From the IMG/VR virus record IMGVR_UViG_3300020195_001430, positions 1-64,000 of that record: a DNA stretch of 64,000 bases. One strand, 5' to 3'. The stretch is from a virus. Every line of letters starts with the position of its first letter. Positions within the stretch are counted from its first letter, which is position 1. The notes below the pieces were generated by a model that did not search any database, had not been told where the DNA came from, and saw nothing but the letters and a program-made list of their open reading frames with translations. Of the stretch, positions 21,951 to 60,554 are shown piece by piece. Made by a program: the position numbers and the translations under genes.

Positions 21951-21963
21951 AGAAAGACAAGTC

Positions 21964-30527: not shown

Positions 30528-30975
30528 GCCATAAAAGAGTCTGTTGACAGGAAATCCATGATTGGATAGACTTTATTGAGACGATTCCATTAGTATGGGA
30601 TGTTGCAATACAAACTCGATGGCACCCCATCGGCGGTTTAGGGCACCGACTGTTGCGATTGCGAAAATTAAGACTTTTGATCACTCAACACGATTTATGA
30701 TGCTTTTGCAGCGATGAAGCCCATATTTTTACCAGTCTTCGGAGCCGAAAGCCCCTACATCGTAGATGCTTGGTCACAAAGCGAGTGAGCGAAGCGAACG
30801 AGACTGCGACCAAGCCCTTTAGGGTAGGGGATGAAGGCGATGGACTAAAGATGGGCTTAAAAGTTTCTCTCCTTCAAAGCAGAGTGACGCTGGTCGAAAA
30901 GGACAAAAGCACCGTCCGCTCAGACTTTCTTGAAAATTGCCTCAGAAATCTGATGCGGCTACTCTATATAAGTTC
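30528..30975. other. Non-coding region upstream of tnpB with nested inverted repeats
   Basis: No gene apart from an optional TTG-initiated N-terminal extension of tnpB from 30937. Three nested perfect stems share one axis: 30717-30724 with 30851-30858 (8 bp), 30752-30758 with 30824-30830 (7 bp) and 30768-30775 with 30808-30815 (8 bp). Small side hairpins include a CCC-TTTA-GGG loop like that at the right end of the element. It may be the left end of the transposon, an RNA, or both. Confidence 0.5.
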
Positions 30976-32139
30976 GTGGGAGTAAATTACACATATCGGT
31001 TTCGTCTTCGACCAACCGCTGAACAACAAACACTGCTTGCCAAACACTTTGGTTGCAGCCGATACCTCTACAACTACTTTCTCGCACGACGCAAACAAGA
31101 ATACCTCACCACTGGTAGGAGCAATAACTTCGTCCGTGACTGCAAAGAACTGACCGAGTTGAAGAAGACCGTCACTTGGCTCAAAGAAGTAAACAGCCAA
31201 AGCCTGCAACACGCCATCAAGAACCTCGATGCCGCCTACGGTAACTTCTTTGAAAAGAGAGCAAAGTTCCCGACCTTCAAGAACAAGAACGGTAAGCAGA
31301 GCTTCCGTGTACCACAGAACGTCAGATTGGTAGACGGCAAGCTCGTCATCCCGAAGTTCTTGGAAGGCATCAAGTGCGTCGTCCATCGTGAAGTCAAGAA
31401 GGAAATCTCGTATTGCACGATCACCAAAAACAAGAGTGGACAGTATCACTGTACACTCTTGGTCGAGAAAGAGATCGAACATCACAAGCCAGTAGATAAG
31501 GAAGTCGGTGTCGATCTCGGCATCAAGACGTTGATCGTAGACAGTGATAATCAGCAGTATGCCAACATCAAGCCGTACCGGACGTTGAAGGCTAAGTTGA
31601 AGCGTGTGCAAAGGAAGTTCAGCAAACGTAAGGAGAAGACGACTGATAAGAAGTCGAAACGGATCGAGAAACTTCGTGTGAAGTTGGCAAGAGTACACCA
31701 GAGGATCAAGGACGTTAGGCAGAACCATCTGCACCAGACGACCAAGAAACTGATTGACGAAAACCAAGTCATTTATCTGGAAACACTCGCTGTCAAGAAC
31801 ATGATGAAGAACCATTGTCTTGCGGGAGCGATTGCCGACTGTTCGTGGTTTGAATTAACCCGACAGTTGGAATACAAGGCGGCTTGGTATGGCAGGAATG
31901 TCGTGAAGATTGACAGGTTCTTCCCAAGTAGCAAGACTTGTAGCAGTTGTTTCTTCATCAAGCAGGACATGAAACTGAGTGATCGGGAGTGGATTTGCCC
32001 TGAGTGTGGGGTGAAGCACGACCGGGATCACAATGCAGCGAGGATGATCTTGTTGCAAGGTAGGAAAACTACGGGTGGAACGCCCGAAAGTAAAGCTCGC
32101 AGACTCAGAAGCAAACCGACTGAACTTTCAGTCGGCTGA
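30976..32139 (+). CDS. tnpB: TnpB RNA-guided nuclease (IS605 OrfB family)
   Basis: 387 residues from GTG 30976; TTG 30937 would add 13. The N-terminal wing reads YRFRLRPTAEQQTLL. RuvC acidic residues are all present: Asp180 (GVDLGIKTL), Glu269 (YLETLAVKNM) and Asp351 (HDRDHNAA). The zinc motif is CSSC...CPEC. TnpB is an omega-RNA-guided DNA endonuclease that keeps the element at its donor site. The gene appears intact, and the usual omega-RNA position (3' end of tnpB into the right end) is preserved. The element lies directly upstream of thyA. Confidence 0.92.
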   Translation: MGVNYTYRFRLRPTAEQQTLLAKHFGCSRYLYNYFLARRKQEYLTTGRSNNFVRDCKELTELKKTVTWLKEVNSQSLQHAIKNLDAAYGNFFEKRAKFPTFKNKNGKQSFRVPQNVRLVDGKLVIPKFLEGIKCVVHREVKKEISYCTITKNKSGQYHCTLLVEKEIEHHKPVDKEVGVDLGIKTLIVDSDNQQYANIKPYRTLKAKLKRVQRKFSKRKEKTTDKKSKRIEKLRVKLARVHQRIKDVRQNHLHQTTKKLIDENQVIYLETLAVKNMMKNHCLAGAIADCSWFELTRQLEYKAAWYGRNVVKIDRFFPSSKTCSSCFFIKQDMKLSDREWICPECGVKHDRDHNAARMILLQGRKTTGGTPESKARRLRSKPTELSVG

Positions 32140-38424: not shown

Positions 38425-38433
38425 CATAAGCAC

Positions 38434-38480
38434 TTACGTCAATTCTTACAGATTTCTGTAAGAATTGACGTAAAATTTTT
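38434..38480 (+). terminator. Terminator after prkA
   Basis: An 18-bp perfect stem (38434-38451 with 38456-38473), then AAATTTTT. The 3' arm forms part of a 24-base sequence repeated at 39477-39500. Confidence 0.85.
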
Positions 38481-38483
38481 CAT
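38460..38483 (+). repeat. 24-base direct repeat, left copy
   Basis: Identical to 39477-39500. The two copies bracket the HNH gene and a short RHH-like frame, as expected for an inserted cassette or a recombination junction. A TATAAT box at 38490-38495, with TTGACG 19 bases upstream inside the repeat, could drive the HNH gene. Confidence 0.8.
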
Positions 38484-38513
38484 ACATACTATAATGGTAG
38501 TATGGAGGTGAAT

Positions 38514-39374
38514 ATGAAGACTTGCTATCGTTGCAAAAGAGAATTGTTAGAAGATCAGTTTGGGAAGAACAAAAGCAAACCGGGCGGTTTGGCTGACGAG
38601 TGTAAAATCTGTAAAAGCGAGCTTTGTAAAGAATACCAGAGTCGCAATAAAGACGAGATCAAGATTAAGAAACACAAGTATTATCTTGAGAACAAAGAGC
38701 AGATCTCAGAGAAGACCAGTCAATACGCCAAAGATCATCGTGAGTGGCACAATGCAAAAGGAGCAAAAGCCAAGAATAAACTAAAATCAGAAGTGTTCGC
38801 AGTTTATTCTTGCGGTGATCCAAAATGTAAAAGTTGTAACGAGACAGACATTGGCGTTCTTACTATTGATCACATTACTGGAAATGGGTCCGATCACAGA
38901 AGAGAGATTTTTGGGAATAGCAAACGGTGTGGATATCCATTTTATCAGTGGCTCAAGAGAAACAGCTACCCAGAAGGATTTCAGGTTCTTTGCTACAACT
39001 GCCAATATCGTAAACGATTACATGAGATGAGATCTGAAGAACAGACGCATCTCAAAGAAGTTAGAGCGGCATACGCCAGATCAGTCAAAGTTGAGTGTCT
39101 TGAGAGTTATGGTAGTTGCAAATGTGAGTGTGGCGAAGATGATGTTGTTGTATTATCGCTCGATCATGTGAACAATAATGGTGCTGATCACAGAAAAGAA
39201 ACCGGAACAAGAGGATATAATTTTTATATTATGTTGAGGAAGACAGGGTTCCCAAATGATCCGCCATTACAAGTTTTGTGTATGAATTGCAATATTAGGA
39301 AAAGAAATGTCAAATATAAAGAAGGAAAAAACGGACAAACAAATGACGGTTATGGTTCAACCTTCGTTATTTGA
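38514..39374 (+). CDS. Homing endonuclease with two tandem HNH-like domains
   Basis: 286 residues from ATG 38514 behind GGAGGTG. An N-terminal zinc module (CYRCKREL..CKIC) is followed by two homologous halves: LTIDHITGNGSDHRREI..QVLCYNCQYRKR near residues 120-175, and LSLDHVNNNGADHRKET..QVLCMNCNIRKR near residues 215-270. Both keep the DH and the CxxC/Asn-type end of HNH. The tandem duplication is unusual. A 7-bp hairpin lies immediately upstream of its ribosome site. Confidence 0.8.
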   Translation: MKTCYRCKRELLEDQFGKNKSKPGGLADECKICKSELCKEYQSRNKDEIKIKKHKYYLENKEQISEKTSQYAKDHREWHNAKGAKAKNKLKSEVFAVYSCGDPKCKSCNETDIGVLTIDHITGNGSDHRREIFGNSKRCGYPFYQWLKRNSYPEGFQVLCYNCQYRKRLHEMRSEEQTHLKEVRAAYARSVKVECLESYGSCKCECGEDDVVVLSLDHVNNNGADHRKETGTRGYNFYIMLRKTGFPNDPPLQVLCMNCNIRKRNVKYKEGKNGQTNDGYGSTFVI

Positions 39375-39477
39375 GGTATTTGAGAAGAAGTGTCAGGAAG
39401 AACACAGGAATGTATCGGAAGTAGTTCGTGAATTGATATCGAAATATTCACAGGGCTGGAATCAGATCCCTAAATGA
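39343..39477 (+). CDS. Short ribbon-helix-helix-like frame
   Basis: 44 codons overlapping the end of the HNH gene in another frame. SLFEVFEKKCQEEHRNVSEV followed by VRELI has the strand-helix-helix pattern of CopG/Arc repressors, including the SEVVRE motif. No good ribosome site was seen, so it may be a relic or a coupled regulator of the cassette. Confidence 0.4.
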   Translation: MTVMVQPSLFEVFEKKCQEEHRNVSEVVRELISKYSQGWNQIPK

Positions 39478-39500
39478 AGAATTGACGTAAAATTTTTCAT
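39477..39500 (+). repeat. 24-base direct repeat, right copy
   Basis: Identical to 38460-38483; marks the right edge of the HNH cassette. Confidence 0.8.
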
Positions 39501-39505
39501 GCAGA

Positions 39506-39579
39506 GAAGACGATGTTGTCTTGATCATGTGAATGATGATTTAATATCCAAGTATGGTTTCAGTTTCCACAAGGTGTAA
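39506..39579 (+). pseudogene. HNH domain remnant
   Basis: The frame CCLDHVNDDLISKYGF resembles the LDHVNNNG core of the adjacent HNH gene, and the DNA is similar over about 35 bases. It has no start and ends at 39579, so it looks like leftover from a second copy. Confidence 0.45.
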
Positions 39580-39582
39580 TAT

Positions 39583-39816
39583 ATGAAAAATCAAGTAACA
39601 AATAAGACTCGAAGAAATACATTAGTTAAATTTAATTTTGAAGATTTGCCTGTAGAATATCACAGCCAATATCCATTTTGTAAGGAAGACATATTTCTGT
39701 TTTTGGGAGAAATCAAAAAAATGGATGGTCATTGCGTTGTAGCTACAAAGGATGGAAGAGTTATATGGGGCTACCATACAGATAATTTCATTGTTCTTTC
39801 AGATGATGAAATTTAA
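39583..39816 (+). CDS. Small conserved-looking phage protein, 77 aa
   Basis: 77 residues. The C-terminal half (FLGEIKKMDGHCVVATKDG then WGYHTDNFIVL) has the look of a small SH3-like barrel found in many phages. AAGGTG precedes the ATG. Function unknown. Confidence 0.65.
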   Translation: MKNQVTNKTRRNTLVKFNFEDLPVEYHSQYPFCKEDIFLFLGEIKKMDGHCVVATKDGRVIWGYHTDNFIVLSDDEI

Positions 39817-39880
39817 GAAATTAAAGGAATAAAAAATGCCTAACAGCATACATGGAGCATGGCGATTAATTGGCGATTAA

Positions 39881-40027
39881 TTGCAGATATTTACAGATTT
39901 ACAAAGACATGATAAAATCAAAGTAGACTGGTGTAAGTCAAATTTTTACAAACTCATTCAAATTAAATATAATGAGTTTGATTCAGTAGAAAAAATTATC
40001 TCAAAAGAGGTGTATTATCCCCAATAG
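39881..40027 (+). pseudogene. C-terminal fragment of a homing endonuclease
   Basis: 48 codons, no start. QRHDKIKVDWCKSNFYKLIQ followed by IKYNEFDSVEKII matches the usual end of a phage endonuclease family (D-x-I-K, WC, then a hydrophobic strand and an Asp-hydrophobic helix). An 11-base tandem duplication (39860-39870 and 39871-39881) lies at its truncated 5' side. Its last codons overlap the expected start of the YhbH-like gene. Confidence 0.5.
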
Positions 40028-41252
40028 AATCCAAGAAGACCACAAAAAATTCAGAGACGTAATTTCTGGCCGTACACGCCGGGAACTCAAGCGTCTGATC
40101 AAATCAGGATCAATCATTCGTCAACGCCCCAAGGGCGGCAAGATGACTGTCAGTATCCCGCAGATTGACATCCCGCACTTTCTATTCGGAGACACAGGCA
40201 AAGGTGTTGGCCGAGGTCCGGGAAAAGATGGCGATGTAATTGGTCGTGAGCCGCAGCCGGGCCAAGGCAGCAAGCCGGGGGATCAACCGGGTGAAGGTAT
40301 CAACATTTCTGTTGATATGGAAGATGTCCTGCGATTCATGCAGGAAGAGCTTCAACTTCCAAGGATGCGTCCAAAGCCGAATGAGACGTTTGAAGAAGTC
40401 AAAATCAAGTACAACGACATCTCGAAGAACGGCCCAGAGTCACTGCGACATACTCGCCGGACGATGAAAGAAGCCATCAAGAGAATGGCCACAACAGGAG
40501 ATCTGTATGATCCCAAGATCATTGCTGGCACTAGAAGTCCCGGCAAGTTGATCACTCCGATTAACTCAGACCGTCGTTACAGACAATATCAAGAGATCAA
40601 GATTCCAACATCCAATGCTGTTATCTTCTTCGCCAGAGACTGTTCTGGGTCGATGGATGACTACCGTTGCGACATCGTGTCTGATATGGCATGGTGGATC
40701 GACTGTTGGATTAGACGATTCTACAAGAAGGTAGATCGTTGTTACTTCGTGCATGACACCAGAGCTTGGGAAGTCAATGAAGAGGAATTCTACACTTACA
40801 GATTTGGTGGCGGAACACAGTGTTCTTCTGCGTTCAAGGCAATTGCTGAACAGTTGGAGAACAGATATCCTCCACACGCCTACAATGTGTATGTGTTCTA
40901 CTTCTCTGACGGCGACAACTGGGGCGGTGATAACGAAGAGATGTTGAAGACAATCAAGGAAGAACTTGGTCCAAACAAAGTGAACATGATCGGTATGTCA
41001 CAGGTTTGTTCTTGGAGATACGAAGACAGCGTTAAGCACTTCTTTGATCAAGCGATCAAGAGCGGCAAGCTGTCTGATTACATGAGAACGGCTTATGTTG
41101 GGCCAGAGGAATCAAAGGGCGACAGTAACTTCGGATTTGGAAACTGGGGCTATGCTCCAGATATGTCTGAAGAAGACAGAAACAGCCAAATCATCGAAGC
41201 CATCAAATCCTTGCTTGGCAAGGAAAGTGCCGCCATGTCGGAGGTCGCATGA
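40014..41252 (+). CDS. YhbH/YeaH-family (UPF0229) protein
   Basis: A PrkA-associated protein. Family-like N-terminal sequence (DHKKFRDVISGRTRRELKRL..RPKGGK) extends 43 codons upstream of the first ATG (40143) and can only begin at ATT 40014 or a neighbouring non-standard codon. The middle is Gly-rich (GVGRGPGKDGD). The C-terminal von Willebrand A-like domain has FARDCSGSMDD as a MIDAS-type motif and YFSDGDNWGG. It pairs functionally with PrkA and SpoVR in bacteria. The ATG-initiated form would be 369 residues. Confidence 0.82.
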   Translation: MIPNRIQEDHKKFRDVISGRTRRELKRLIKSGSIIRQRPKGGKMTVSIPQIDIPHFLFGDTGKGVGRGPGKDGDVIGREPQPGQGSKPGDQPGEGINISVDMEDVLRFMQEELQLPRMRPKPNETFEEVKIKYNDISKNGPESLRHTRRTMKEAIKRMATTGDLYDPKIIAGTRSPGKLITPINSDRRYRQYQEIKIPTSNAVIFFARDCSGSMDDYRCDIVSDMAWWIDCWIRRFYKKVDRCYFVHDTRAWEVNEEEFYTYRFGGGTQCSSAFKAIAEQLENRYPPHAYNVYVFYFSDGDNWGGDNEEMLKTIKEELGPNKVNMIGMSQVCSWRYEDSVKHFFDQAIKSGKLSDYMRTAYVGPEESKGDSNFGFGNWGYAPDMSEEDRNSQIIEAIKSLLGKESAAMSEVA

Positions 41253-42133
41253 GGTGCAAAGAAACAAGATATGGCCCAATGATGTATCCAGAGAACGACG
41301 ACCTTACAGGTCGTTCTCTGGATTGTTATGGCGAGGCTCAGCAGCTTGAAATAGAATACCTAGAGAAGATCGTTGGTGAAGGTGATGTCATGATGGACAT
41401 CGGGGCCAACATCGGTGCCATTACAATTCCAATGTCAAAAAGAATTGGCTCAAAGGGATATGTTTTGGCTCTCGAAGCTCACTCGATGTTGTTCTATACT
41501 TTGTGTGGCAATTTGGCACTAAATGGTCTGAGTCACGTTCAGGTTTTTCAGAGGGCCGCTGCCGACAAAACGGGAAGTATGTTCTATTTCCACCACTTTG
41601 ATTTCTCCAAGTCACAAAACTTTGGCAATCTCAAGTTGGCAGGTTTGCTCAACTACAAAGACGACAATGGGAATTCTTACGATAATCCTGTCACAGCGAT
41701 TGCATTGGATGATCTAGGAATTGCCAGTCCGAAACTCATCAAGATTGATGTCGGAGGAATGGAGCCTGTAGTTCTCAATGGTTTGAGAAGAACACTCAAA
41801 AGAGCAAAGCCAATTCTGTACATTGATTTCAGACAGAACTGGCAATACATCATAGAGTATTTGAATTCTGTGGGATATGAGTGGGCTTTGCACGAGACTC
41901 CCTTGTTTAACCCGAACAATTTTCAATCTGTGTCAGAGAACGTATTGTTGGACGAAAGCGGAATGCCGCTTATGTCTTATGACTTGGTTTGCTGGCACAA
42001 AACAAAACGCCCCGATTTGGATGATCCGTACATTGTGGATTTGGAGAAGAGCGATGATCCAAGACACGTCCAAATTAAAGAGGTAAGAGATAATGCAGAC
42101 AGAGCAGCAGATTTTTCAGTCGAAGATGATTAA
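41249..42133 (+). CDS. FkbM-family methyltransferase
   Basis: 294 residues. MMDIGANIGAITIPMSKRIG near residue 49 is the SAM loop; VLALEAHSMLFYTLCGNLALN and LIKIDVGGMEPVVLNG follow in the order of the FkbM family (normally IDVEG; here IDVGG). These enzymes O-methylate sugars or small molecules. It overlaps YhbH by 4 bases and the next glycosyltransferase by 41, suggesting a sugar-modification pair. Confidence 0.85.
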   Translation: MRCKETRYGPMMYPENDDLTGRSLDCYGEAQQLEIEYLEKIVGEGDVMMDIGANIGAITIPMSKRIGSKGYVLALEAHSMLFYTLCGNLALNGLSHVQVFQRAAADKTGSMFYFHHFDFSKSQNFGNLKLAGLLNYKDDNGNSYDNPVTAIALDDLGIASPKLIKIDVGGMEPVVLNGLRRTLKRAKPILYIDFRQNWQYIIEYLNSVGYEWALHETPLFNPNNFQSVSENVLLDESGMPLMSYDLVCWHKTKRPDLDDPYIVDLEKSDDPRHVQIKEVRDNADRAADFSVEDD

Positions 42134-43121
42134 CCAATCGCTGGCTGCGGCCTACAATTGTATTCATACAGGACGACCAAACGAAGCTGCAAACATGCTT
42201 GGGGTCGTCCAACGGATCGAACCAGATAACCCCTTAGTCCCTGAGTTTTTTCGGCTTATCGCAGCGAAGAGCGGATTGTGCGATGAGCCGGAAATTGCCG
42301 AGTTCGGTAACTTTTGGGGCGGCGAAAACCTCAATGGTTGTACCATTGAGGTTTTTTGCGATCAGGGCATGGGTGATACAGTAAATATGCTGCGATATCT
42401 GCACCTCATGAAGAATCGTTGGTCATGTCGCATCGTCCTGAACTGCTACGCTTACTTTGAACAGTTCGAAAGATTACTCAAAGACGTGCCTTACATCCAC
42501 GAATTTGTTAAGTATCACAAGACTTGCGATTACTTTACAGACATTTTCTGCTTGCCGACAATTCTTTCTGACATTAAATTGCCGATTCAATATCCCGCTC
42601 ATTTTGCTATGGTTCTTGAAAAGGGTGTGCCTCCGCAACCAATTTTGCCAGCGTATGCAACATTCTCAAGTGCAGACGCATTGAACAACATTCCAGAGAA
42701 ACCGAGAGTTGGTGTTTCTTGGATGTCAAATCCAGAAAATCAACTGTCAACCAAAAAATCAATCCCATTAGAGATCATCGAGAAATTACAGTCCCCAATG
42801 TACGATCTGTGGTCTCTTCACCCAGATGAATGCCCGCCATTCATGAACAAGATCAGATTGAGAGATCTGTATGATACAGCGGCTGTTGTGAGTTGTTTGG
42901 ATTATGTGGTCTCGGTGGATACGGTGGTATTACATCTGGCCGGAGCAATGCAGGCTCCGACCTATGGCATGATTCCAGATGGCTGTGACCCTCGGTGGGG
43001 AACAGAAAATGATCTTACTGAGTGGTATCCTTCTGTGACTTTAATAAGACAAGAGGGAGATTGGTTGTGTGCAATCAAAGAAGTCAAAGAATGCTTGGAA
43101 TCCATTTTCAGAGCAAGATAG
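42093..43121 (+). CDS. GT-B glycosyltransferase, heptosyltransferase-like
   Basis: 342 residues. A short TPR-like N-terminus (SLAAAYNCIHTGRPNEAANML) precedes a GT-B body with DQGMGDTVNMLRYL near 90 (nucleotide-sugar loop), RVGVSWMSNPEN near 210, and DYVVSVDTVVLHLAGAMQAP near 270 (donor-binding domain). The pattern matches GT9/TPR-linked transferases that add heptose or related sugars. HldE at 33813 could supply ADP-heptose. Confidence 0.8.
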   Translation: MQTEQQIFQSKMINQSLAAAYNCIHTGRPNEAANMLGVVQRIEPDNPLVPEFFRLIAAKSGLCDEPEIAEFGNFWGGENLNGCTIEVFCDQGMGDTVNMLRYLHLMKNRWSCRIVLNCYAYFEQFERLLKDVPYIHEFVKYHKTCDYFTDIFCLPTILSDIKLPIQYPAHFAMVLEKGVPPQPILPAYATFSSADALNNIPEKPRVGVSWMSNPENQLSTKKSIPLEIIEKLQSPMYDLWSLHPDECPPFMNKIRLRDLYDTAAVVSCLDYVVSVDTVVLHLAGAMQAPTYGMIPDGCDPRWGTENDLTEWYPSVTLIRQEGDWLCAIKEVKECLESIFRAR

Positions 43122-43124
43122 GTA

Positions 43125-43153
43125 TTGAGTCTTTCTTTTCGATCTTGTAGAAT
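43125..43153 (+). promoter_or_regulatory. Sigma70-like promoter of the spoVR gene
   Basis: TTGAGT (43125-43130), 17-base spacer, TAGAAT (43148-43153), 23 bases upstream of the ATG. Confidence 0.55.
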
Positions 43154-43176
43154 AAGGCATAGAAGGAGCTAGTGAC

Positions 43177-46104
43177 ATGGCAAAAGTTTCTAAAATGATG
43201 AGTGGGTCTCCGATCCTTTGTGGCGATAACACAATTCCGGGATTGAAGATTCACAAAGAAGTTCTCGAACAGATTCCCGCTATTGAAGCGGCCTGTAAAG
43301 GTATGGGTCTGGACTACTACCCAATCATCGTGGAATTCGTCAGATATGACGAAATGGCAGAACTCGCCAGTTATGGCGGATTTCCTGTAAGATACCCACA
43401 TTGGAAATGGGGAATGGAATATGAAGAACTCTCCAGAGGTTACGAGTACAATCAATACCGTATCTCTGAAATGGTAATTAATTGTTTGCATCCAGAAGCT
43501 CCAGTCTTAACATCACAAGGCACCATATCGGCTAAAAATGTTAAGACGGGAGATGAAGTTTTGTTAGATGGCAGAACAAGGAATGTAATCGCTGTTGTGC
43601 GACAACCAAAAGCGAAGACTAAGAAAATTCGTCTTCGTAAAGGGCAAGAAATGATTTGTTCTCCAAATCATAAATGGAAAGTTTTGACAAAAAACGGACC
43701 TGACTGGGTTGAAACAAAAGATCTTAAATCAGGAGATATTTTGTTGGGCAACGATTCATTCAATATGGTTCGTTGGGACACTAAATTGCAATGGTCCTTG
43801 GATGATGTGTGGGACGACACTCGGCCAGCATCCAGACCTTGGCTTAAAAAAATTGTTCCGCCAGCAGAAATGAATTTGGCTTTGGCAGAACTTTTGGGCG
43901 TGCTAATTGGAGATGGTTCGGTTGGGGTTCAAGGTGCAGAAAATAATTTAGCTGTAGCTGTAGGAAAAGATAATCGCCAATATGCTGAACACGTGGCATC
44001 GTTATTTTCTGTTGTTTTTGGATTAGAGGCTGTAATCCAAGAGAAAACGGCTGGGTTGGTTGTTCTTTTGCAGTCTAAAGTTGCTGTTGATTTTGTTGAT
44101 TATCTTGGCATAAACAAAGGTTCTACATATGAGAACAAGAGAATCCCACATTCAATTTGGAAATCTCATCCGATTTTCAGAGCAGCGTTCCTAAAAGGTT
44201 TATTTGATACAGACGGATATGCCACTGATCAACTCGGCATGAGTTGTTTTAATATTAATCTTGCTAATGATGTCCAAATTATGTTTTCTGAGATGGGCAT
44301 TCAGACTATATTAGAAACATTGACAAATGGCACAGGAAAATACGGCAATGAACTATTCATCAATGTTGTAGAAATTAGAGGACAAGCCGCTCTTAGAAAA
44401 TTCCGGGACAGGATTGGATTCACTATTCCTTACAAAACACAGGGCTTGAATAAACTCACATCACGAATTTATTGTCGTGGCGGAGGGATTCATTCTGAAT
44501 ATATTCAAAACTCTCTTTTGGAATGGGGAGAAGAGATGGATATTACATCTTATAACTGTCCGTCTCTTGGTCGCTCGCTGAATCAGATGAAAAAGAAAAG
44601 TGTTGGAAACAACTGTTTGCTCAGCTTTATTGAAAGGGCGGCTAATGTTGAGAAATATAATTCACCAGCGGAACTGTTGATGATATTAGAAAACCCAATG
44701 TTTGAGGTTCAAGATGTGCTAGATGGTGAAGAAACAGAAACAATTGACATTGCTTTAGATCATAACGATCATGATTTTATAGCTTATGGTCTTGTTACTC
44801 ATAACACCAACCCATGCTACATCTATTGCATGGACTCAAACACACTTGTTGACAACGTGGACGTTATAGCCCACGCTATTGGTCACAACGACTTCTTCAA
44901 GAACAATATTTTCTTCGAGCCGACCGATGAAAACATGATGAACAAGTTGGCCAACCACGGCACCAGAATCAGGAAATACATGTCCCGTTGGGGATATGAA
45001 GTGGTAACTGAATTCATTGATCATGTTCTGAGGATTGACACTTTGATTGATCCACAACATGCGTGGAGCAAGAAGACGATCAGAAATGCTGTTGTTAAAG
45101 ACGAGAGAAGTTATCTGTTTCCAGAGCGTCTCAAGTCACACCACAACTACATGGATGAATGGGTCAACCCAAAGAGCTTCATCGACAAACAGCACGAGGA
45201 CATTGAGAAGCAAGAAGCCGCTCAATTCTTGGACATCTTCGAGAAGCCTGAGAAAGACATTCTGGGATTCATCAAGGACAATGCTCCTTTGAAACCATGG
45301 CAACAAGACATCATCAGTATGCTGTATGAAGAGTCGATGTACTTCCAGCCGCAACGTCAAACGAAGATGCTCAATGAAGGTTGGGCGTCGTATGTTGACT
45401 ATCATCTGATGTGCCGAGAAGGTCTCTGTAATCTGGGGCAGAAGAAGGATGGCGACGGTATTTGGCATTACGCCGATCACAAGTGGCGAGTTCTGGGCGG
45501 CAAGTATTCCATGAACCCATACAAGATGGGATTTGAGATCCTGTTGGATATCGAGGATCGTTGGAATAAGGGTCGATTCGGCAGGGACTACGAAGAGTGC
45601 CGTGACATCAAGAAAAAGGAAGACTGGGATTTGAAGCTTGGTCTTGGCAAAGAGAAAGTCTTTGAGGTTCGCAAGTTCTACAACGACTACACAGCAATTC
45701 AAGAGTTCTTCACGCCAGAGTTGTGTGAGAAGAAGCAATTCTTTGAATGGCGTCTCTTCCCTAACGGCGAATACAAGATCATCAACCGGGACTTCAAGAC
45801 GATCAAGCAGAAACTGTTGAAGAGATACTTGAATGGTGGCTTGCCAGACATCAGACTTACTGATCCAAATCACTTGGGCAAGGGCTGGTTCTTCATCAAG
45901 CACATGTGGGACGGTCGTCCTCTGGAAGAACGATACGCCAGAGAAACAATCATCTCATTGTTCAAGCTGTGGCAGAATACGATTATTCTGTCTACACAAA
46001 CGATGGAAGACAAGGAGTTTGTCTACATCTGTGATGGAACTAATCCTGACAAGGATGTTCACCTTCTGACACGTGAAGAATACGAAAAGGATTTCATGCG
46101 ATGA
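43177..46104 (+). CDS. SpoVR-family protein precursor containing an intein
   Basis: 975-codon precursor. The extein (residues 1-102 and 544-975, 534 residues after splicing) matches SpoVR/YcgB: YYPIIVEFVRYDEMAELASY, GYEYNQYRISEMVIN joined to TNPCYIYCMDSNTLVDNVDV, then HAIGHNDFFKNN with conserved His. SpoVR works with PrkA and YeaH in stress and sporulation-linked responses in bacteria. The intein interrupts the conserved VIN/TNPC region. The next gene overlaps the stop by four bases (ATGA). Confidence 0.92.
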   Translation: MAKVSKMMSGSPILCGDNTIPGLKIHKEVLEQIPAIEAACKGMGLDYYPIIVEFVRYDEMAELASYGGFPVRYPHWKWGMEYEELSRGYEYNQYRISEMVINCLHPEAPVLTSQGTISAKNVKTGDEVLLDGRTRNVIAVVRQPKAKTKKIRLRKGQEMICSPNHKWKVLTKNGPDWVETKDLKSGDILLGNDSFNMVRWDTKLQWSLDDVWDDTRPASRPWLKKIVPPAEMNLALAELLGVLIGDGSVGVQGAENNLAVAVGKDNRQYAEHVASLFSVVFGLEAVIQEKTAGLVVLLQSKVAVDFVDYLGINKGSTYENKRIPHSIWKSHPIFRAAFLKGLFDTDGYATDQLGMSCFNINLANDVQIMFSEMGIQTILETLTNGTGKYGNELFINVVEIRGQAALRKFRDRIGFTIPYKTQGLNKLTSRIYCRGGGIHSEYIQNSLLEWGEEMDITSYNCPSLGRSLNQMKKKSVGNNCLLSFIERAANVEKYNSPAELLMILENPMFEVQDVLDGEETETIDIALDHNDHDFIAYGLVTHNTNPCYIYCMDSNTLVDNVDVIAHAIGHNDFFKNNIFFEPTDENMMNKLANHGTRIRKYMSRWGYEVVTEFIDHVLRIDTLIDPQHAWSKKTIRNAVVKDERSYLFPERLKSHHNYMDEWVNPKSFIDKQHEDIEKQEAAQFLDIFEKPEKDILGFIKDNAPLKPWQQDIISMLYEESMYFQPQRQTKMLNEGWASYVDYHLMCREGLCNLGQKKDGDGIWHYADHKWRVLGGKYSMNPYKMGFEILLDIEDRWNKGRFGRDYEECRDIKKKEDWDLKLGLGKEKVFEVRKFYNDYTAIQEFFTPELCEKKQFFEWRLFPNGEYKIINRDFKTIKQKLLKRYLNGGLPDIRLTDPNHLGKGWFFIKHMWDGRPLEERYARETIISLFKLWQNTIILSTQTMEDKEFVYICDGTNPDKDVHLLTREEYEKDFMR
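43483..44805 (+). other. LAGLIDADG intein in SpoVR
   Basis: 441 residues. It begins at Cys (CLHPEAPVLTSQG) after extein VIN and ends at His-Asn (AYGLVTHN) before extein Thr. Splicing blocks are visible: block B as CSPNHKW and block F as HDFIAYGLVTHN. In the middle, LLGVLIGDGSV and FLKGLFDTDGY are the two LAGLIDADG helices with catalytic Asp, so the homing endonuclease appears intact. Confidence 0.9.
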
Positions 46105-47488: not shown

Positions 47489-47549
47489 GGTATTATCTAT
47501 AGACTCAACTGACGATTTTGGTTAAAGTCTTCTTTTCTAAGGAGGCATG

Positions 47550-48254
47550 ATGCCAGAACAAACCAACCTACAAGACCAGCATTTCAATGTCCGACTGAAG
47601 GTATCTGATGTTTGGACCAAGATGATGGTCGAGTTTCTTAAAGAAACGGGCCATATCGAAGATTACAGAGAATCAACTCTGGACGAAGACAAGAACCTGT
47701 TGATCGACTACTGGTTCAAATATCCAGACGAAAAGGAGTTCGTCCCCATCGCTTTCAAATTGCGAATCGACCCTGCCAGAAGGGACATCCCAGTTGTTTA
47801 CAGCCAGCCGTTCTATGGCACAAATGGGGAGAAGACAGTTCTTGGCCGTGACTTCCGGTGTTTGCAGGGACAAGTGCGTGAGTATTATGTTGCTGTAAAG
47901 AACGCCGAGAAGGAGTTCTGTGAAATTTACAGAATCTCAAAGGAAACTTTGTCTCCCAAAATCGACGAGATGATTGCATCTTGGAAAACAGACGAGAATA
48001 TCTCCAGCCAGTTCATCGCTTTTGACAAGCTTACAGAAGCTCGAAACGAAATTCTCTTAAAGAACTTGAACTGGGGGAAGGGAGTTCGTAAGATATGGCA
48101 GACGAGCAACGGAGAGATTTGGTGGCAGAAGAATCCCGGCGAGAAGTTCTCCAAAATCAATCTGTATGTTCCTGAGAGCTTTAAGGAAGAAAGTTTTCAG
48201 ATTCCGACCGCTGCTTACCAGAGAATGCTTGAGAAATCCAAGCAAGATTCTTAA
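47550..48254 (+). CDS. Hypothetical phage protein, about 234 aa
   Basis: No family recognised. Two ATGs in tandem follow AAGGAGG; the second (47550) has the better spacing. Sequence features are IDYWFKYP, AFKLRIDPARRDIPVVYSQP and YYVAVKNAEKEFCEIYRIS, suggesting alternating strands and helices, possibly enzyme-like. It begins a plus-strand run of five unrecognised genes before the HNH-dnaE locus. Confidence 0.7.
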   Translation: MPEQTNLQDQHFNVRLKVSDVWTKMMVEFLKETGHIEDYRESTLDEDKNLLIDYWFKYPDEKEFVPIAFKLRIDPARRDIPVVYSQPFYGTNGEKTVLGRDFRCLQGQVREYYVAVKNAEKEFCEIYRISKETLSPKIDEMIASWKTDENISSQFIAFDKLTEARNEILLKNLNWGKGVRKIWQTSNGEIWWQKNPGEKFSKINLYVPESFKEESFQIPTAAYQRMLEKSKQDS

Positions 48255-50848: not shown

Positions 50849-51628
50849 ATGTCATCAGGAATTAAGCTTACACAAGAAGAAGTTTCAGATTATTTTAAGC
50901 AACAAGGTTGTGAACTTCTCGATTCATACAAGAACGCACGTACTAAGATAAAGTATCGCTGCGTGTGTAACAATATATCAGAAATAGTTTTTTACAGTTT
51001 TAAGGCAGGTAATCGTTGTCGCAATTGTGGCAACAATAAAAATTCTGACAGGCAAACTTTTTTACAAAAAGAAGCAGAAGAAAAATTTAATAAAATTGGT
51101 TGTAAGCTGATTGGAAGTTACACAAAATCCAGAATACCAGTTGAATTTCAATGTCATTGTGGATTGATTTCTACAGGAATTCCAAATAATATTTGGAGAC
51201 GTGGTCGCTGTGGAGAATGTGGCATTAAAGCTAGATCAAAAGAGAATCATTATATGTGGTATGATGATCGTGAAGAATATAAGCAGATTTGTAGCTTCAA
51301 GGATCGTTGTCATAAGCTCATAACCATGGTTCTTAATGTAACTGGAAGAGTAAAAAACAAAAAGTCGGCAGAACTTTTGGGGTACGATTACAAACAACTT
51401 CAAGAGCATATCAAATCACATCCGAATTGGTCTAAAATTAAAGGAAAGTGGCATGTTGATCACATATTTCCTATCAAGGCATTTATTGATCATGGAATTT
51501 CTGATTTAAAGATAATTAATGGTTTGGATAATTTAAGACCACTTGACTCTAATGAAAATTTGTGCAAGAATGCGAAGTATGATAAGGATGAATTTTACAC
51601 TTGGCTTAAAAAGAAAGGGATTTTATGA
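50849..51628 (+). CDS. Free-standing HNH homing endonuclease next to dnaE
   Basis: 259 residues. Two N-terminal treble-clef-like repeats (CVCNNISEIVF..CRNCG and CHCGLISTG..CGECG) look like DNA-binding zinc modules. The C-terminal HNH core is WHVDHIFPIKAFID followed by LDNLRPLDSNENLCKNAK, with catalytic His and Asn. Its TGA overlaps the dnaE ATG. The short group I intron lies 55 bases downstream and has no endonuclease of its own. Confidence 0.88.
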   Translation: MSSGIKLTQEEVSDYFKQQGCELLDSYKNARTKIKYRCVCNNISEIVFYSFKAGNRCRNCGNNKNSDRQTFLQKEAEEKFNKIGCKLIGSYTKSRIPVEFQCHCGLISTGIPNNIWRRGRCGECGIKARSKENHYMWYDDREEYKQICSFKDRCHKLITMVLNVTGRVKNKKSAELLGYDYKQLQEHIKSHPNWSKIKGKWHVDHIFPIKAFIDHGISDLKIINGLDNLRPLDSNENLCKNAKYDKDEFYTWLKKKGIL

Positions 51629-53297
51629 TGCACCATCCAATTACAGGTTTTGAACATTTGCATCGTCATAGTGATTTTAGCCTCAACAATTAGGGGGCCT
51701 TGTCAGAGAAATCTGATAAGCAAACCGGGTGAACTCAGGGAAACCCTAACGTAAAGACGAGGGCAATCCTGAGCCAAGCCTGCGATACATCGCAGGAAGG
51801 TGCAGAGACTACTGGAGGGATAAAGTTCCCTTAATTACCAGATTCAGTGCCCGGCATCCATTTTGGATGATGATATAGTCCACGCCACAGGAAACTGTGG
51901 AACCGTCGTGCTTAGACGGATTCGCCATGGTCTCCGAATACGCCGAGCGTATGCGGGAAATCAATCAAAAGTTTCTGTGCATTACAGACCACGGGGTGAT
52001 GGGTGCTGTGCCACAGCAAGTATCCGAAAGCGAGAAACACAATCTGTTTCCGCTATTCGGATGCGAGCTTTACATCAACCACATGCAGCCAGAAGTCAAC
52101 AGCCGGGAAGAGTCGGCTGAATACAGAAAGTCTTTGGGAGATGGATCGACTGAAGATCGTACTTCCATAGACAAGAAGCCAAGTCTGCTGCAAAAGAAGT
52201 TCGACAAGTCGTCGCACTTGTTGGCCATTGCCTACAACAACGTGGGCTATTCCAATCTTGTGCGTTTGACATCATGGGCATGGATTCACGGTTACTACCG
52301 TCGCCCACGCATCAATCACGAAGTCCTTCAGAAGTACAAAGAAGGCATCATCTTTACGACCGGCTGTGGCAACAGCGAGATCGCCAATGCTTTTATGGGC
52401 GACAAGGATGAGTCAGGCAAGCCGATCTTCAATGAAGAAGCCGGATTCCAAATGTTGGAACGGTATATCCAGATGATCGGCACCAAGCACCTCAAGCTTG
52501 AATTGATGATGCTGGACTGGGTGATGCAGAAGTTCTACAACCAGTTCTTGATCAAGGCCCACGACAAGTATCGTCTTGATCTTACGCTCTCACAGGATTG
52601 CCATTACTGTAAGAAAGAGCACAGCCATAACCAGCAGTTGATGCTCATGCAGCAGAACAAACGCACGCTTGGTGAAATCCAAGCGATGATCGACGCTGGC
52701 GATGCCGATGACATTTTCGAGCTTCAGGACACGAATCTGTGGCTCAAGTCGGAAGATGAACTGAATGTCAAATGGGAATCTGATTTCAGCGACATCATTC
52801 CATACGAACTTTTTAAGCAGTCCAAAGAGAACACAGTCAAAATCTGTGAGTATGCGAAGGGCGTGGAGATTGATCGTCAGATTAAGCTCCCGAAGATGCC
52901 TGACGCTGAAGAACAACTCATGGATCACATCAAACGAGGATTCCTTTCTCGTCACTGCCCCAAGACGCCAGAATACTCCAAGCGGATCAAAGAGGAATAT
53001 GAATTGATCTGCGAGAAGGGCTTTGCCAGCTACTTCCTGATTCAGAAGATGATGACGGATGAGGCTCGTGTCAAAGGCCCAGAACTTCTCGGATTTGGAG
53101 ATGGATCAGAAGCTGTTGGTCCCGGTCGAGGATCGGCCTGTGGATCATTGGTGGCCTACTGCTTGAGGCTCCACGATGTGGAACCCATTGTTCATGACTT
53201 GAGATTCTCCAGATTCTTGAGTCCTGCTCGTGGTGGTCGCCAGATGCGGATTCGGTATGGAATGGAACCGATCCCGCACGAGATTGTACAGATGTAA
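51625..53297 (+). CDS. dnaE: DNA polymerase III alpha (DnaE), N-terminal part, split gene
   Basis: Exons 51625-51683 and 51911-53297 join to give about 481 residues. Exon 1 ends in HLHRHSDFSL and exon 2 begins LDGFAMVSEY, restoring the PHP-domain start. Further PHP motifs are CITDHG and SQDCHY. The protein then enters the palm: YFLIQKMMTDEA, AVGPGRGSACGSLVAYCL and RFSRFLSPARGG. It stops there after EIVQM, without the catalytic aspartates, which are encoded 7.3 kb downstream at 60608. AAAGGGA precedes the ATG. Confidence 0.88.
51684..51910 (+). ncRNA. Group I intron without an internal ORF
   Basis: 227 bases. The 5' splice site follows U51683, which pairs as U-G in P1 (exon GCCU with intron GGGGC). 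Conserved core pieces are visible: AATCCTGAGCCAAG (Q region), GGTGCAGAGACTA (R/P7) and GATATAGTCC (S/P7'). The intron ends in G51910. Splicing restores the DnaE frame exactly. Confidence 0.9.
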
Positions 53298-56562: not shown

Positions 56563-57510
56563 ATGTTAGTTGAAATGGCAATAGGGGATGCCTACGGTGC
56601 TTGTTTTGAATGCACAAGCAACGATTTTGTGGCGAGAAACAACGATCTTAACTATGAGATCCACCCAAGAGTTCTAAGAAGATATCCTGCGGACAAGCAA
56701 CCAACTCTTGTTCCAGCAGGGTGTTATACAGATGACACACAGATGTCAATTGGCATTGTCGAGATGATGCTCGATAAAACCTTTGATTGGCATGACAAAG
56801 AAGCGATGGCTGATGTTTTCTTGAAGTGTTTTAAGCAAGATGAGCGGCGTGGGTATACTCCATATCTCTTCTTGACGTTGATGAACAGCAAATCGGGGAA
56901 AGAGCTTCTTTCAAAACTCAACGGCGACAGTGATAAATCAGGAGCTTTCATGCGTGCCGCACCAATTGGCCTCTACTCTGATCTGGATGAAGTGAAAGAG
57001 AAGGCGGTATTGCAGGCTATTGTCACACATGATTCATGGGTTGGCAGGAATTCAGCGATTGGAGCCGCCATGATGGCTCATTACTTCTACCATGATCTTG
57101 GGCCGAAGAATGGCATGATCCAATGGCTCAAGGACAATCACTTCAAACACACGTTGTTCGCCGAGAAGCCATTTTTAGTTCCATCTGACACAAATCCAGA
57201 AGGGGTCGAGGTAAAGCCTTGGAAGCAAGACAAACGTGTCAGAGTTCATGGTTGGGATTGCTTTGAGGCAGCGGTTTACGTTATAAACGAGTGTGAAACG
57301 ATGTCTGAGGTGTTGCATTTGTGCGTGGCTCTTGGCGGAGACTCAGATACGGTTGCCGCTGTGGCGGCAGCAGTTGCAAGTTGTTCCAAAGAAATCGACC
57401 AAGACATTCCAAGTCAACTGATTGAAGGATTTGAGGACGGACCTTTCGGCCACAAATTTTTGGCCGAGTTGGACATTCAACTGAAGGAGGCTTTCCCATG
57501 CGGTGGCTAA
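56563..57510 (+). CDS. ADP-ribosylglycohydrolase family protein
   Basis: 315 residues from ATG 56563 behind AAGG. AIGDAYGACFE near residue 6, CYTDDTQMS with DDT at 57-59, and the C-terminal ALGGDSDTVAAVAAA with GGDSDT at 258-263 give the two magnesium-binding clusters of DraG/ARH enzymes. It removes ADP-ribose from proteins or nucleic acids. In a phage this could undo toxin- or defence-mediated ADP-ribosylation. Confidence 0.88.
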   Translation: MLVEMAIGDAYGACFECTSNDFVARNNDLNYEIHPRVLRRYPADKQPTLVPAGCYTDDTQMSIGIVEMMLDKTFDWHDKEAMADVFLKCFKQDERRGYTPYLFLTLMNSKSGKELLSKLNGDSDKSGAFMRAAPIGLYSDLDEVKEKAVLQAIVTHDSWVGRNSAIGAAMMAHYFYHDLGPKNGMIQWLKDNHFKHTLFAEKPFLVPSDTNPEGVEVKPWKQDKRVRVHGWDCFEAAVYVINECETMSEVLHLCVALGGDSDTVAAVAAAVASCSKEIDQDIPSQLIEGFEDGPFGHKFLAELDIQLKEAFPCGG

Positions 57511-58136
57511 TCGTCATTTTGGGCCTGTTGATGCCCGCCAGTGTTAATGCCATGGAAAATGGCACGCTGCTATTCGTTGAAAACGGACAAAATCTTGTGG
57601 AATGTTACACTCATTCCACATACTCCCACGTCGCCATTGTGATCGACGATCATGTGTATGAGGCTGAGCCTCCACGGATTCGGAAGCAACCACTGCTGGA
57701 GTGGTTTACAAATGTTGGAAAGTACAATGAAGGGACTGCCAGTCCCGCATTGGTCGTTGTGATGTCGCCAGACAAACCGTATTCCAAAGAGGAAGTCGGC
57801 CAGATGCGAGAGTATCTGGAAAAACAAGTTGGGCGACGTTATTCTATCCGTGGGTATCTAAGAAAGGTGCCGGGCGACGGAATCCATTGTGCCGAGATGT
57901 GTGCTGAAGCACTAGAAGCATCAGGTCGATGTGATCTTTCAGACCCAAACTACACGTACTCTCCCGGAGATCTCCACGACACAGCCCCGGACTATCACCA
58001 GCTTGGCAAGAAGTTGTACGTCAGGATCAAAGACGAATATCGTCGGCCTGTGACTTCACGCTGGAAAGACTGGTGGAAGCACAAGGGTTCAATGTGTGGG
58101 TGGAGTTGTATGGAAACAATGACATTCTGCTGGTGA
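57498..58136 (+). CDS. Secreted NlpC/P60-like (YiiX-type) hydrolase
   Basis: 212 residues. A signal peptide (about 1-18, WLIVILGLLMPASVNA) precedes YSHVAIVIDDHVYEAEP (catalytic His region first) and IHCAEMCAEAL with Cys131. His before Cys marks the permuted papain-like group (YaeF/YiiX). These are predicted lipid- or peptide-bond hydrolases of the envelope. It overlaps the ADP-ribosylglycohydrolase end by 13 bases. Confidence 0.75.
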   Translation: MRWLIVILGLLMPASVNAMENGTLLFVENGQNLVECYTHSTYSHVAIVIDDHVYEAEPPRIRKQPLLEWFTNVGKYNEGTASPALVVVMSPDKPYSKEEVGQMREYLEKQVGRRYSIRGYLRKVPGDGIHCAEMCAEALEASGRCDLSDPNYTYSPGDLHDTAPDYHQLGKKLYVRIKDEYRRPVTSRWKDWWKHKGSMCGWSCMETMTFCW

Positions 58137-58145
58137 AAGAGACAA

Positions 58146-58544
58146 ATGGAACTGCTTATTGTCGGCATGGCGTTTCTCATCGGATTCGGCTCATATCTGG
58201 CTTTTGCGAGGCCAGTTCAACCAGACCAAGTGCATTACGAGCTTCAGGACGCCAATTTATGGCTCAAACCTGAAGAGGAACTGGCTCAAACAGCCCCAGC
58301 CCCATTCAACCAACCAGTGCCACCATGCGTTCCTTCTTCAAACTCTGACGAAGAGGAGGAAGACGATGACGACATGGACGAAGAAGATGACTACGACGAT
58401 GACGAAGACGACTACGAGGATGAGGAAGAGTACGATTACGATGACGAGGAAGAGGAGGAAGAGGAGGAATGGGACGACGATGACGACGAGGAAGATGACG
58501 AGGAAGATGACGAGGAAGAAGACGAGGACGACGATATTTGGTGA
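58146..58544 (+). CDS. Membrane-anchored protein with a very acidic tail
   Basis: 132 residues: one N-terminal membrane helix (about 2-20), a 45-residue linker and then about 70 residues almost entirely Asp/Glu with some Tyr. The linker peptide YELQDANLWLKPEEEL is nearly the same as a segment of the DnaE PHP region (ELQDTNLWLKSEDEL), and 37 of 45 bases match. The acidic tail could mimic DNA or bind cations; function unknown. Confidence 0.65.
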   Translation: MELLIVGMAFLIGFGSYLAFARPVQPDQVHYELQDANLWLKPEEELAQTAPAPFNQPVPPCVPSSNSDEEEEDDDDMDEEDDYDDDEDDYEDEEEYDYDDEEEEEEEEWDDDDDEEDDEEDDEEEDEDDDIW

Positions 58545-58559
58545 AATCCAAAAAGTCGC

Positions 58560-58587
58560 TTGACAATTCCGTTCGGTGCCTTATTAT
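58560..58587 (+). promoter_or_regulatory. Promoter of the tmRNA gene
   Basis: Perfect -35 TTGACA (58560-58565), 16-base spacer and TATTAT (58582-58587), about 40 bases before the mature 5' end. Confidence 0.7.
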
Positions 58588-58625
58588 ATACTCTGAAGCA
58601 GGTGCTCATGGCTTGCTTCCCAATC

Positions 58626-58998
58626 GGGGTCGATTGGCTTCGACATGGTGACGTGTGTGCAATGTGGCGATCCGAGGCTTGTGTGGTGGACTCGTAAAAA
58701 CCAGACAAAAAACCAACTGGCAACACTGTTGCTCCTCTCCGAATGGCCGCTTAAGCGGTGCCGGGTGTAACAGCCCGGCGAGAATGATCCGACGACGCCT
58801 GATAGTCGGAATCATCAGCATCAGGATTAGTCCAACAGACCGCTGTCGTAGGTCGAAGTGGACGAGAATCAAATCGACTGGTCTTCATGAAGCCGTGTCT
58901 TCTTGGGCGTTGTGAAGATGAGATCAAACCGCAGACTATGATCGTAGAGGCGTGCAGGCAGGCACTTATGGACAGGGGTTCAATTCCCCTCGACTCCA
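58626..58998 (+). ncRNA. ssrA: tmRNA (ssrA)
   Basis: Rescues stalled ribosomes. The 5' GGGGTCG (58626-58632) pairs with 3' CGACTCC (58991-58997) in a 7-bp acceptor stem with the G3-U70 pair that marks alanine tRNA. The T-arm AGGGG-TTCAATT-CCCCT precedes it, and CTTCGAC lies in the D-like region. CTCGTAAAAA and a run of A lead to the tag frame 58719-58754, GNTVAPLRMAA followed by TAA, giving the tag A-GNTVAPLRMAA. CCA is not encoded. It is complete, with its own promoter and terminator. Confidence 0.93.
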
Positions 58999-59002
58999 CT
59001 GA

Positions 59003-59040
59003 AAAAGGCCCGGAAGAGAAATCTTCCGGGCCTTTTCGTT
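59003..59040 (+). terminator. Terminator of the tmRNA gene
   Basis: 14-bp stem (59003-59016 with 59023-59036) ending in TTTTCGTTT. It also touches the end of the convergent gene. Confidence 0.88.
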
Positions 59041-59426
59041 TAGGTGGATCTGCGATTCGTTTCGCTTTCCAATCTGAGGCCCGATCCGTCGATCTTGGCC
59101 GATCCAGATATCTCTTCTGTAGAAGTCTTGCCAAAGAACGTCTTCAAGAAGGCTAGGGCACCAGTATTGACTTCATCCCACTGGTAGGCTGGAGCTTTCA
59201 TGTACCAGACTCTGTAGGCAGTGATCGAGATCTCTTCTACTCCCTTTACGGCAAACAACCCATTGGCAAACGCATCTTGGGCTGTTGAATCAAGAGCTTC
59301 ATAATTCTCTTTTCCGATCTGGAATCTGTAATAACCAGCGGGATCTTCTCTTAGATGCACATACACGCCATCATCTGATGTGCCGCTCATCTTGTTGTAT
59401 TCTAGTTTGTATTTAAGACTGGCCAT
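59040..59426 (-). CDS. Small protein, possibly Nfu N-domain-like
   Basis: 128 residues from ATG 59426 behind GAGG. The core (DAFANGLFAVKGVEEISITA, then YQWDEVNTGALAFLKTFF) resembles the Nfu/NifU N-terminal domain pattern (LF-x-x-x-GV, strand, then W-x-x-V-helix). No CxxC cluster domain is attached, so an Fe-S role is not implied. Confidence 0.5.
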   Translation of the reverse strand: MASLKYKLEYNKMSGTSDDGVYVHLREDPAGYYRFQIGKENYEALDSTAQDAFANGLFAVKGVEEISITAYRVWYMKAPAYQWDEVNTGALAFLKTFFGKTSTEEISGSAKIDGSGLRLESETNRRST

Positions 59427-59486: not shown

Positions 59487-60554
59487 ATGAAACTACAACA
59501 CAAACACAAAGTTGAGATTCTTCCAGAATCAATAAGAGTCTTAACTAATATTGTGAACAAACTCAGGGAGAAAAAGATGTCTTTGTACAACGAAATAGGC
59601 GAATGTTCATCCATGGACCCAGTTGATGATTGGGACGATGATGCAGAAGAATTGGATGTTAGCCCAAAGTATTGTCAGTGGGGCACATCTGATGGCAAAA
59701 TCTTCATGCCATCCAGCAAAACAGTCAGTAAACTGACTCCGGGTGTCTATGAGATCGACATGAGTCCGCAAGTTGGACTTTACTTCGAGAAGGTTCCTGT
59801 AAAAACAGAGGGACTGCTGCGGTTCCCGGACACCAATTCCGACAAAGTAGTCAGTGAGATTCAGAAGTTCTGGGATCGTGAGAACGTCTTCAGAGAATAT
59901 GAAATCTCCTACAAGCGTGGAATCATTCTTTATGGCCCTCCCGGTTCTGGCAAAAGCTGTACAGTGCAATTGATTATGCAGGACGTGGTGCAGCGACAGG
60001 GAGTTGTTCTGGAGTTCGATGAACCAAATCTATTCATCAGTGGCATGAGAGTTCTGCGTCAGATTCAACCAGAAACTCCCGTTGTGGTTATCATGGAAGA
60101 CATCGACTCCATTCTTGAGATGTACAACGAGTCGTTGATCTTAAACATCCTCGACGGCGTGAATCAGATGGACAAGGTTGTCTTCTTGGCAACCACCAAT
60201 TACCCAGACAAGCTGGGCCATCGCATCATGAATCGCCCAAGTCGATTCGACAAACGATTCCGCATCGGATTCCCTTCAGATGAATCACGCCGGATGTACT
60301 TTGAACATTTGATTGGGCAGGAGAATATCTCCAAACTCAAGATCGACCTTGATAAGTGGGTTTCTGACACAAACGAATTCAGCATCGCTCACCTTAAGGA
60401 ATTGTTCGTTGCTGTAATCATTCTCGGCGATGAATACAAAGACGCCTTGAAGACCTTGAAGAAAATGAAGGAAGACATCAAGGACAAGGACTACGAAGCC
60501 ACGATGGGCTTCGGAACATCTAGTAACAACAAAGCAGAGGATTATTACGACTAG
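59487..60554 (+). CDS. AAA+ ATPase
   Basis: 355 residues. Walker A GPPGSGKS at 150-157, Walker B VVVIMEDIDS near 205, sensor 1 VFLATTNYP near 235 and the Arg finger region NRPSRFDKRF near 250 identify a classic AAA domain, closest in feel to BCS1/FtsH/katanin-type modules. The N-terminal 140 residues would be the substrate-recognition part. AGGA precedes the ATG. Confidence 0.85.
   Translation: MKLQHKHKVEILPESIRVLTNIVNKLREKKMSLYNEIGECSSMDPVDDWDDDAEELDVSPKYCQWGTSDGKIFMPSSKTVSKLTPGVYEIDMSPQVGLYFEKVPVKTEGLLRFPDTNSDKVVSEIQKFWDRENVFREYEISYKRGIILYGPPGSGKSCTVQLIMQDVVQRQGVVLEFDEPNLFISGMRVLRQIQPETPVVVIMEDIDSILEMYNESLILNILDGVNQMDKVVFLATTNYPDKLGHRIMNRPSRFDKRFRIGFPSDESRRMYFEHLIGQENISKLKIDLDKWVSDTNEFSIAHLKELFVAVIILGDEYKDALKTLKKMKEDIKDKDYEATMGFGTSSNNKAEDYYD

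Follow-up and report, generated by a model that had tools for sequence, protein, structure and literature searches.

A complete one-piece tmRNA gene in a phage genome and its retention among related huge phages

Phage-encoded tmRNAs are already documented. Ten were known in 2014, and tmRNA has been reported for mycobacteriophages of the Bxz1 group and Wildcat and for Bacillus phage G (PMC4131195). An ARAGORN-based survey recorded tmRNA in 402 phage genomes, 2.3% of 18,146 (PMC9004378), and a curated database holds 79 unique phage tmRNA sequences (PMC11915505). Huge phages have been noted to carry tmRNA, some together with SmpB, the tmRNAs being assigned by ARAGORN (Al-Shayeb et al., PMC7162821). 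The 657-kb Mar_Mega_1 was reported to encode tmRNA (PMC9723777), and the Sinorhizobium jumbo phage AP-J-162 was reported with both tmRNA and clpX, without a link between them being drawn (PMC11242549). A search of open-access papers for phage-encoded ClpX found nothing.

The window (the whole stretch of 64,000 nucleotides that was analysed, which makes up almost the entire 65,289-base virus record) adds another phage tmRNA. The Rfam model RF00023 matched positions 58626-59001 on the plus strand with 150.9 bits (E 2.3e-59), spanning the whole model (1-374) far above its gathering score of 47, and the same match was recovered in the 65,289-base record. The original prediction had described a complete phage tmRNA gene with promoter, terminator and alanine identity pair, and had asked for a covariance-model search; this end-to-end match, together with the acceptor, promoter, terminator and tag alignment, bears the description out. 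The features of the gene are as follows.

58560-58587, plus strand: sigma-70-like promoter, TTGACA-16-TATTAT, 11/12 consensus matches
58626-58998, plus strand: one-piece tmRNA (ssrA), 373 nt before CCA addition, from RF00023
58626-58632, plus strand: 5' strand of the acceptor stem, GGGGTCG, pairing with 58991-58997, with G3-U70
58673-58708, plus strand: pseudoknot PK1, CGAG/CTCG and TTGTgTGGT/ACCAgACAA, from covariation in relatives
58719-58754, plus strand: tag reading frame, GGC resume codon to TAA stop, GNTVAPLRMAA, from the aligned tag frames of 18 relatives
58747-58758, plus strand: hairpin CCGC-TTAA-GCGG at the helix 5 position, containing the tag stop codon, from sequence, minimum-energy fold and RF00023 alignment
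58760-58779, plus strand: extra hairpin GCCGGG..CCCGGC between helix 5 and PK2, from the minimum-energy fold
58783-58825, plus strand: pseudoknot PK2, TCCGAC/GTCGGA with CCTGAT/ATCAGG, from comparison with shuffles
58830-58879, plus strand: probable pseudoknot PK3, GTCCA/TGGAC with a stem between its loop and downstream sequence, outer helix in the RF00023 alignment
58881-58936, plus strand: probable pseudoknot PK4, outer stem GTCTTCATGA/TTGTGAAGAT, helix in the RF00023 alignment
58974-58990, plus strand: T-arm, AGGGG-TTCAATT-CCCCT, from sequence and RF00023 alignment
59004-59042, plus strand: intrinsic terminator, 14-bp stem, GAAA loop and T-rich tail

In its overall layout, the RNA corresponds to the bacterial one-piece tmRNA, with which it shares the G3-U70 acceptor, T-arm, D-loop without a stem, PK1, tag frame, helix 5, pseudoknot domain (PK3 and PK4 being probable) and terminator. 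It differs in being phage encoded, in the extra hairpin after the tag (which the alignment shows to be missing from most relatives), and in the CCA, which is not encoded (A73 at 58998 is followed by CTG). The fourth residue from the end of the tag is Arg (LRMAA), where bacterial tags usually have Ala, and the tag begins from a GGC resume codon. Since the order of the parts is the standard 5'-to-3' one, the RNA is not of the permuted two-piece form; Methylophage Melnitz encodes such a permuted tmRNA, with a glutamine riboswitch, and shares with the window gene an adjoining promoter of its own (PMC9004378). The T-loop is uninterrupted, so the RNA is not of the intron-containing form, and the presence of a tag frame and pseudoknots distinguishes it from the domain-only tmRNA of phage DS6A, which shares the tRNA-like domain but lacks a tag frame (PMC4131195, PMC11915505). 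Earlier phage tmRNAs resemble it in being full length and in residing in large phages; here, by comparison, the gene is syntenic, is vertically kept across a clade marked by prkA-yeaH-spoVR, and has selected tags.

The individual structural elements were then assessed in the window and in its relatives. The acceptor stem (GGGGTCG/CGACTCC) has 7 bp including G3-U70, a pair present in 19/19 tmRNAs inspected, and the T-arm, tag frame and stop named in the original prediction were likewise all found. A pseudoknot domain, whose absence was to count against the prediction, is present. Across 18 phage tmRNAs, PK1 had a covariation score of 0.58 versus 0.20 for shuffled alignments, 53 cells changed on both sides versus 16 in shuffles, and standard pairs in 90% of the cells of its 14 pairs versus 70% when shuffled; the signal was destroyed when the partner was shifted by one column. 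In the window's own PK1 the second stem contains a G-G mismatch, and this PK1 taken alone is indistinguishable from shuffles (64/200 as good). For PK2, 1/200 shuffles was as good. PK3 and PK4 are probable, resting on the model alignment; for each of them in the window alone, 30/200 shuffles were as good, which is not significant. The fold of the whole RNA was 2.0 standard deviations better than that of shuffles. ARAGORN with default settings reported no tmRNA in the window, and the tag ARRE, obtained with a relaxed threshold, was rejected because the relatives give it no support.

Tag frames were placed by alignment. The window frame, with its TAA stop at 58752-58754, aligned with the tag frames of 18 relatives, which upholds the predicted tag A-GNTVAPLRMAA and its -MAA end. 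All 19 aligned tags end in (M/L/V)-Ala-Ala, an ending that guided placement where the sequences were divergent. In its middle the tag is variable (GETVYAMAA, ANTFAVAA, DKTNFAMAA, VENTTPLRMAA), and each of TAA, TAG and TGA occurs as a stop among the 19 tmRNAs. Both Ala codons have GC at positions 1 and 2 in 19/19, and position 3 uses all four bases; because variation is confined to third positions, selection acts on the translated degron. Degradation by ClpXP depends mainly on the C-terminal Ala-Ala (PMC7652416).

The gene is flanked by its own expression signals. The end of the promoter lies 38 bases from the tmRNA start, with a chance expectation of 0.5 such sites in the 800-base region, and promoters scoring at least 9/12 were found upstream of 9/18 related tmRNAs versus 18% of shuffles. 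The terminator hairpin starts 5 bases after the tmRNA; terminators with a stem of at least 7 follow 14/18 related tmRNA genes versus 0% of shuffles. A complete, expressible tmRNA gene with the tag GNTVAPLRMAA is thus well supported.

Next, the phage that carries the gene was characterized. The window record encodes a phage-family DnaB-type helicase, a UvsX-like recombinase and SSB. The best match among GenBank phages for the helicase and for the PrkA-type kinase of 695 aa (33% and 62% identity, respectively) was LR756511.1, a published 595-kb record of an uncultured phage that itself has a full tmRNA. The order prkA, DUF444/yeaH, spoVR, tmRNA, AAA ATPase is identical in the window and LR756511, and this synteny gives good support for the tmRNA belonging to a phage. 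The first three genes are the landmark of the tmRNA locus, whose protein-coding members in the window are listed here.

36337-38424, plus strand: PrkA-type serine kinase, 20 kb upstream of the tmRNA (PF08298, PF06798)
40143-41252: DUF444/YeaH (PF04285)
43177-46104: SpoVR (PF04293)
59487-60554, plus strand: AAA ATPase, the conserved downstream neighbor of the tmRNA (Pfam PF00004, E 4.2e-14)

The window ATPase has 60% identity to the one just downstream of the LR756511 tmRNA, and an AAA ATPase also adjoins the tmRNA in records L095 and L093. It was considered as a possible ClpX and rejected, as it resembles YjoB/Cdc48-type ATPases. The upstream protein at 57498-58136 (PHROG "enoyl-CoA hydratase-like") was likewise rejected as ClpP; its Pfam match, which is below the cut-off, places it closer to the C92 permuted papain-like family. 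A pattern search of viral contigs found no relatives of this C92-like protein, and a counterpart is present in record L108. Between it and the tmRNA, the ORF at 58146-58544 encodes a hydrophobic N terminus followed by about 65 residues that are nearly all Asp or Glu, with no family match.

Several other genes of the window were recorded. The prkA-yeaH(DUF444)-spoVR stress module (36337-46104) is interleaved with FkbM methyltransferase and glycosyltransferase genes, and PrkA relatives are present in Thermus phages too. The SpoVR gene contains an inserted intein with a LAGLIDADG domain, an insert that the LR756511 SpoVR does not have. A group I intron (RF00028, 102.4 bits) lies at 51674-51901, in the opening part of a DNA polymerase gene; the preceding exon ends in ...HLHRHSDF and is PHP-domain-like, polymerase homology resumes at 51897, and an HNH endonuclease ORF (50849-51628) lies upstream. 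The phage also contains a TnpB/IS605 OrfB-type gene (30937-32139) and a GlpX-type fructose-1,6-bisphosphatase gene (21871-22890, E 6.7e-105), a metabolic gene that is unusual in phages.

To survey the clade, 49 related records were collected via their helicase and PrkA proteins. A tmRNA scored over the cut-off in 18/49, and in 15/24 (about 60%) of the records that extend 20 kb or more beyond prkA on its downstream side. The remaining 9/24 long records have no detectable tmRNA, and the gene is therefore not essential to the clade. In the 18 records, the tmRNA lies 4.9-16.2 kb downstream of the prkA-type gene, on the same strand in 17/18, and tmRNA distances track PrkA protein distances (Mantel r 0.56, p 2e-4, n=17). 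Long retention by descent would be expected to produce this pattern. The original statement that phage tmRNAs are rare holds for sequenced phages overall, given the survey and database counts cited above, but not for this clade. Default ARAGORN found 11/19 of these tmRNAs and missed 8/19; since published phage counts are based on it, phage tmRNAs are probably undercounted.

One related record, L108 (IMGVR_UViG_3300031623_001144), carries a tmRNA on the minus strand (about 1260-1856, intron included) whose T-loop is split by a 226-nt group I intron (RF00028, 96.3 bits). With the boundaries set so that U precedes the intron and G ends it, the insertion point is between loop bases 1 and 2, and removal of the intron restores the T-arm and G3-U70. 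Intron-containing tmRNAs have been described from bacteria (883 sequences; PMC11915505); no report of one in a phage was found in the open-access literature.

Ribosome rescue and proteolytic tagging are the activities expected of such an RNA. We consider it quite probable that the window gene encodes a functional one-piece tmRNA, kept by descent in the huge-phage clade, which rescues ribosomes through the SmpB of the host. The RNA would be transcribed from its own promoter and processed at both ends (RNase P), and CCA and alanine would be added by host (or phage) enzymes. Once charged, it would join host SmpB and enter ribosomes stalled where broken messages end, and there Ala-GNTVAPLRMAA would be added to the nascent protein and the ribosome freed; the -MAA end would route the tagged fragment to ClpXP-type proteases. 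In the late stage of infection, with phage or host nucleases cutting messages, the phage would gain a steady supply of ribosomes, and the likeliest benefit is this freeing of ribosomes from cut messages, with phage translation continuing. SmpB was found in 1/47 records (G040, 114 bits). None was found in the 595-kb LR756511, so the host SmpB must accept the phage tmRNA, and SmpB, ClpX and ClpP were all absent from the 65-kb window record, which is a fragment. When bacterial genomes were scanned for the clade consensus tag, six tmRNAs were found (five in Bacteroidia and one in a Chloroflexi MAG), which hints at a possible Bacteroidota host for some relatives. The window's own tag falls outside this pattern, and therefore no host is named for it.

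A different main role, re-routed proteolysis, was weighed against rescue: the phage tag, ClpX and a ClpP-like protease would clear host proteins or recycle amino acids. ClpX scored above the NCBIfam cut-off in 9/45 records of the clade, together with a full tmRNA in LR756511, G024, G026 and G048 and with a weaker tmRNA match in LR756504. The LR756511 ClpX aligns over its full length with solved bacterial ClpX (E 5e-131). In E. coli ClpX, the ssrA tag is read by Tyr-Val of pore-1, Thr and Val of pore-2, and Arg and His of RKH (PMC7652416); these residues are retained in the clade ClpX proteins, except that G026 has RKN and the pore-2 pattern of G039 is altered. ClpP-like S14 proteases occur in 8/14 records and in six contigs (G014, G017, G024, G026, G034, G040) lie between prkA and the tmRNA. 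The tags all retain the degron end and not the middle, and selective degradation of host proteins was proposed by the authors of the Melnitz study (PMC9004378). Nevertheless, a tmRNA tags anything on a stalled ribosome, and no preference for host proteins is apparent here. The window record has neither ClpX nor ClpP, including beside the gene at 47547-48254, whose homologue in relatives adjoins a ClpP-like gene. Models of Clp proteases and of head-maturation proteases both match the ClpP-like proteins, in every case below the cut-off. Four contigs (G032, G033, G039, G041) have ClpX apart from any detectable tmRNA, and for this reason no statistical link is claimed from these fragments. We therefore regard proteolysis as the main job as rather unlikely. 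A tag-unfold-degrade path run by the phage, with its own tmRNA, ClpX and ClpP-like protease and only SmpB and charging enzymes drawn from the host, is a tentative suggestion, slightly less doubtful.

The RNA might instead act as a decoy that inhibits the host tmRNA by tying up SmpB, like the domain-only RNA related to phage DS6A. An RNA consisting of the tRNA-like domain only strongly inhibits tmRNA, perhaps via SmpB titration (PMC4131195). LR756511.1 encodes, at 2250-2386 (L124 1501-1637), a second RNA of 137 nt that scores above the RF00023 cut-off (50.4 bits), includes G3-U70 in its tRNA-like domain and lacks a clear tag frame; it is closer to the DS6A tmRNA than the window RNA is, and could act as such a decoy. 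A DNA match for it was found in 0/46 other records. For the window tmRNA, which has pseudoknots and a complete tag frame under codon-level selection, both needless for a decoy, this role is very improbable. Least probable, and largely refuted, is that the gene is a recent nonfunctional passenger from a host chromosome or that the contig is bacterial and misfiled as viral: phages and islands commonly integrate at tmRNA genes (PMC11915505) and prkA, yeaH and spoVR occur in bacteria too, but the locus is the same across a diverse clade and diverges in parallel with PrkA, the structure and tag are intact, UvsX, helicase and SSB are of phage type, the published LR756511 genome is syntenic, and neither the exact tag-region DNA in the viral contig collection nor similar DNA in GenBank phages (DNA search) was matched.

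Rescue of ribosomes by a phage tmRNA working with host SmpB thus remains the preferred reading. The tmRNA is not a stray copy, as it occupies one place across a diverse clade and its tag end is selected. The interest of the finding centers on the clade-wide retention of the tmRNA and on the co-encoded ClpX: some of the same phages encode a ClpX that would be expected to read such tags, so that what phages do with tmRNA can be tested on a defined set of genes.
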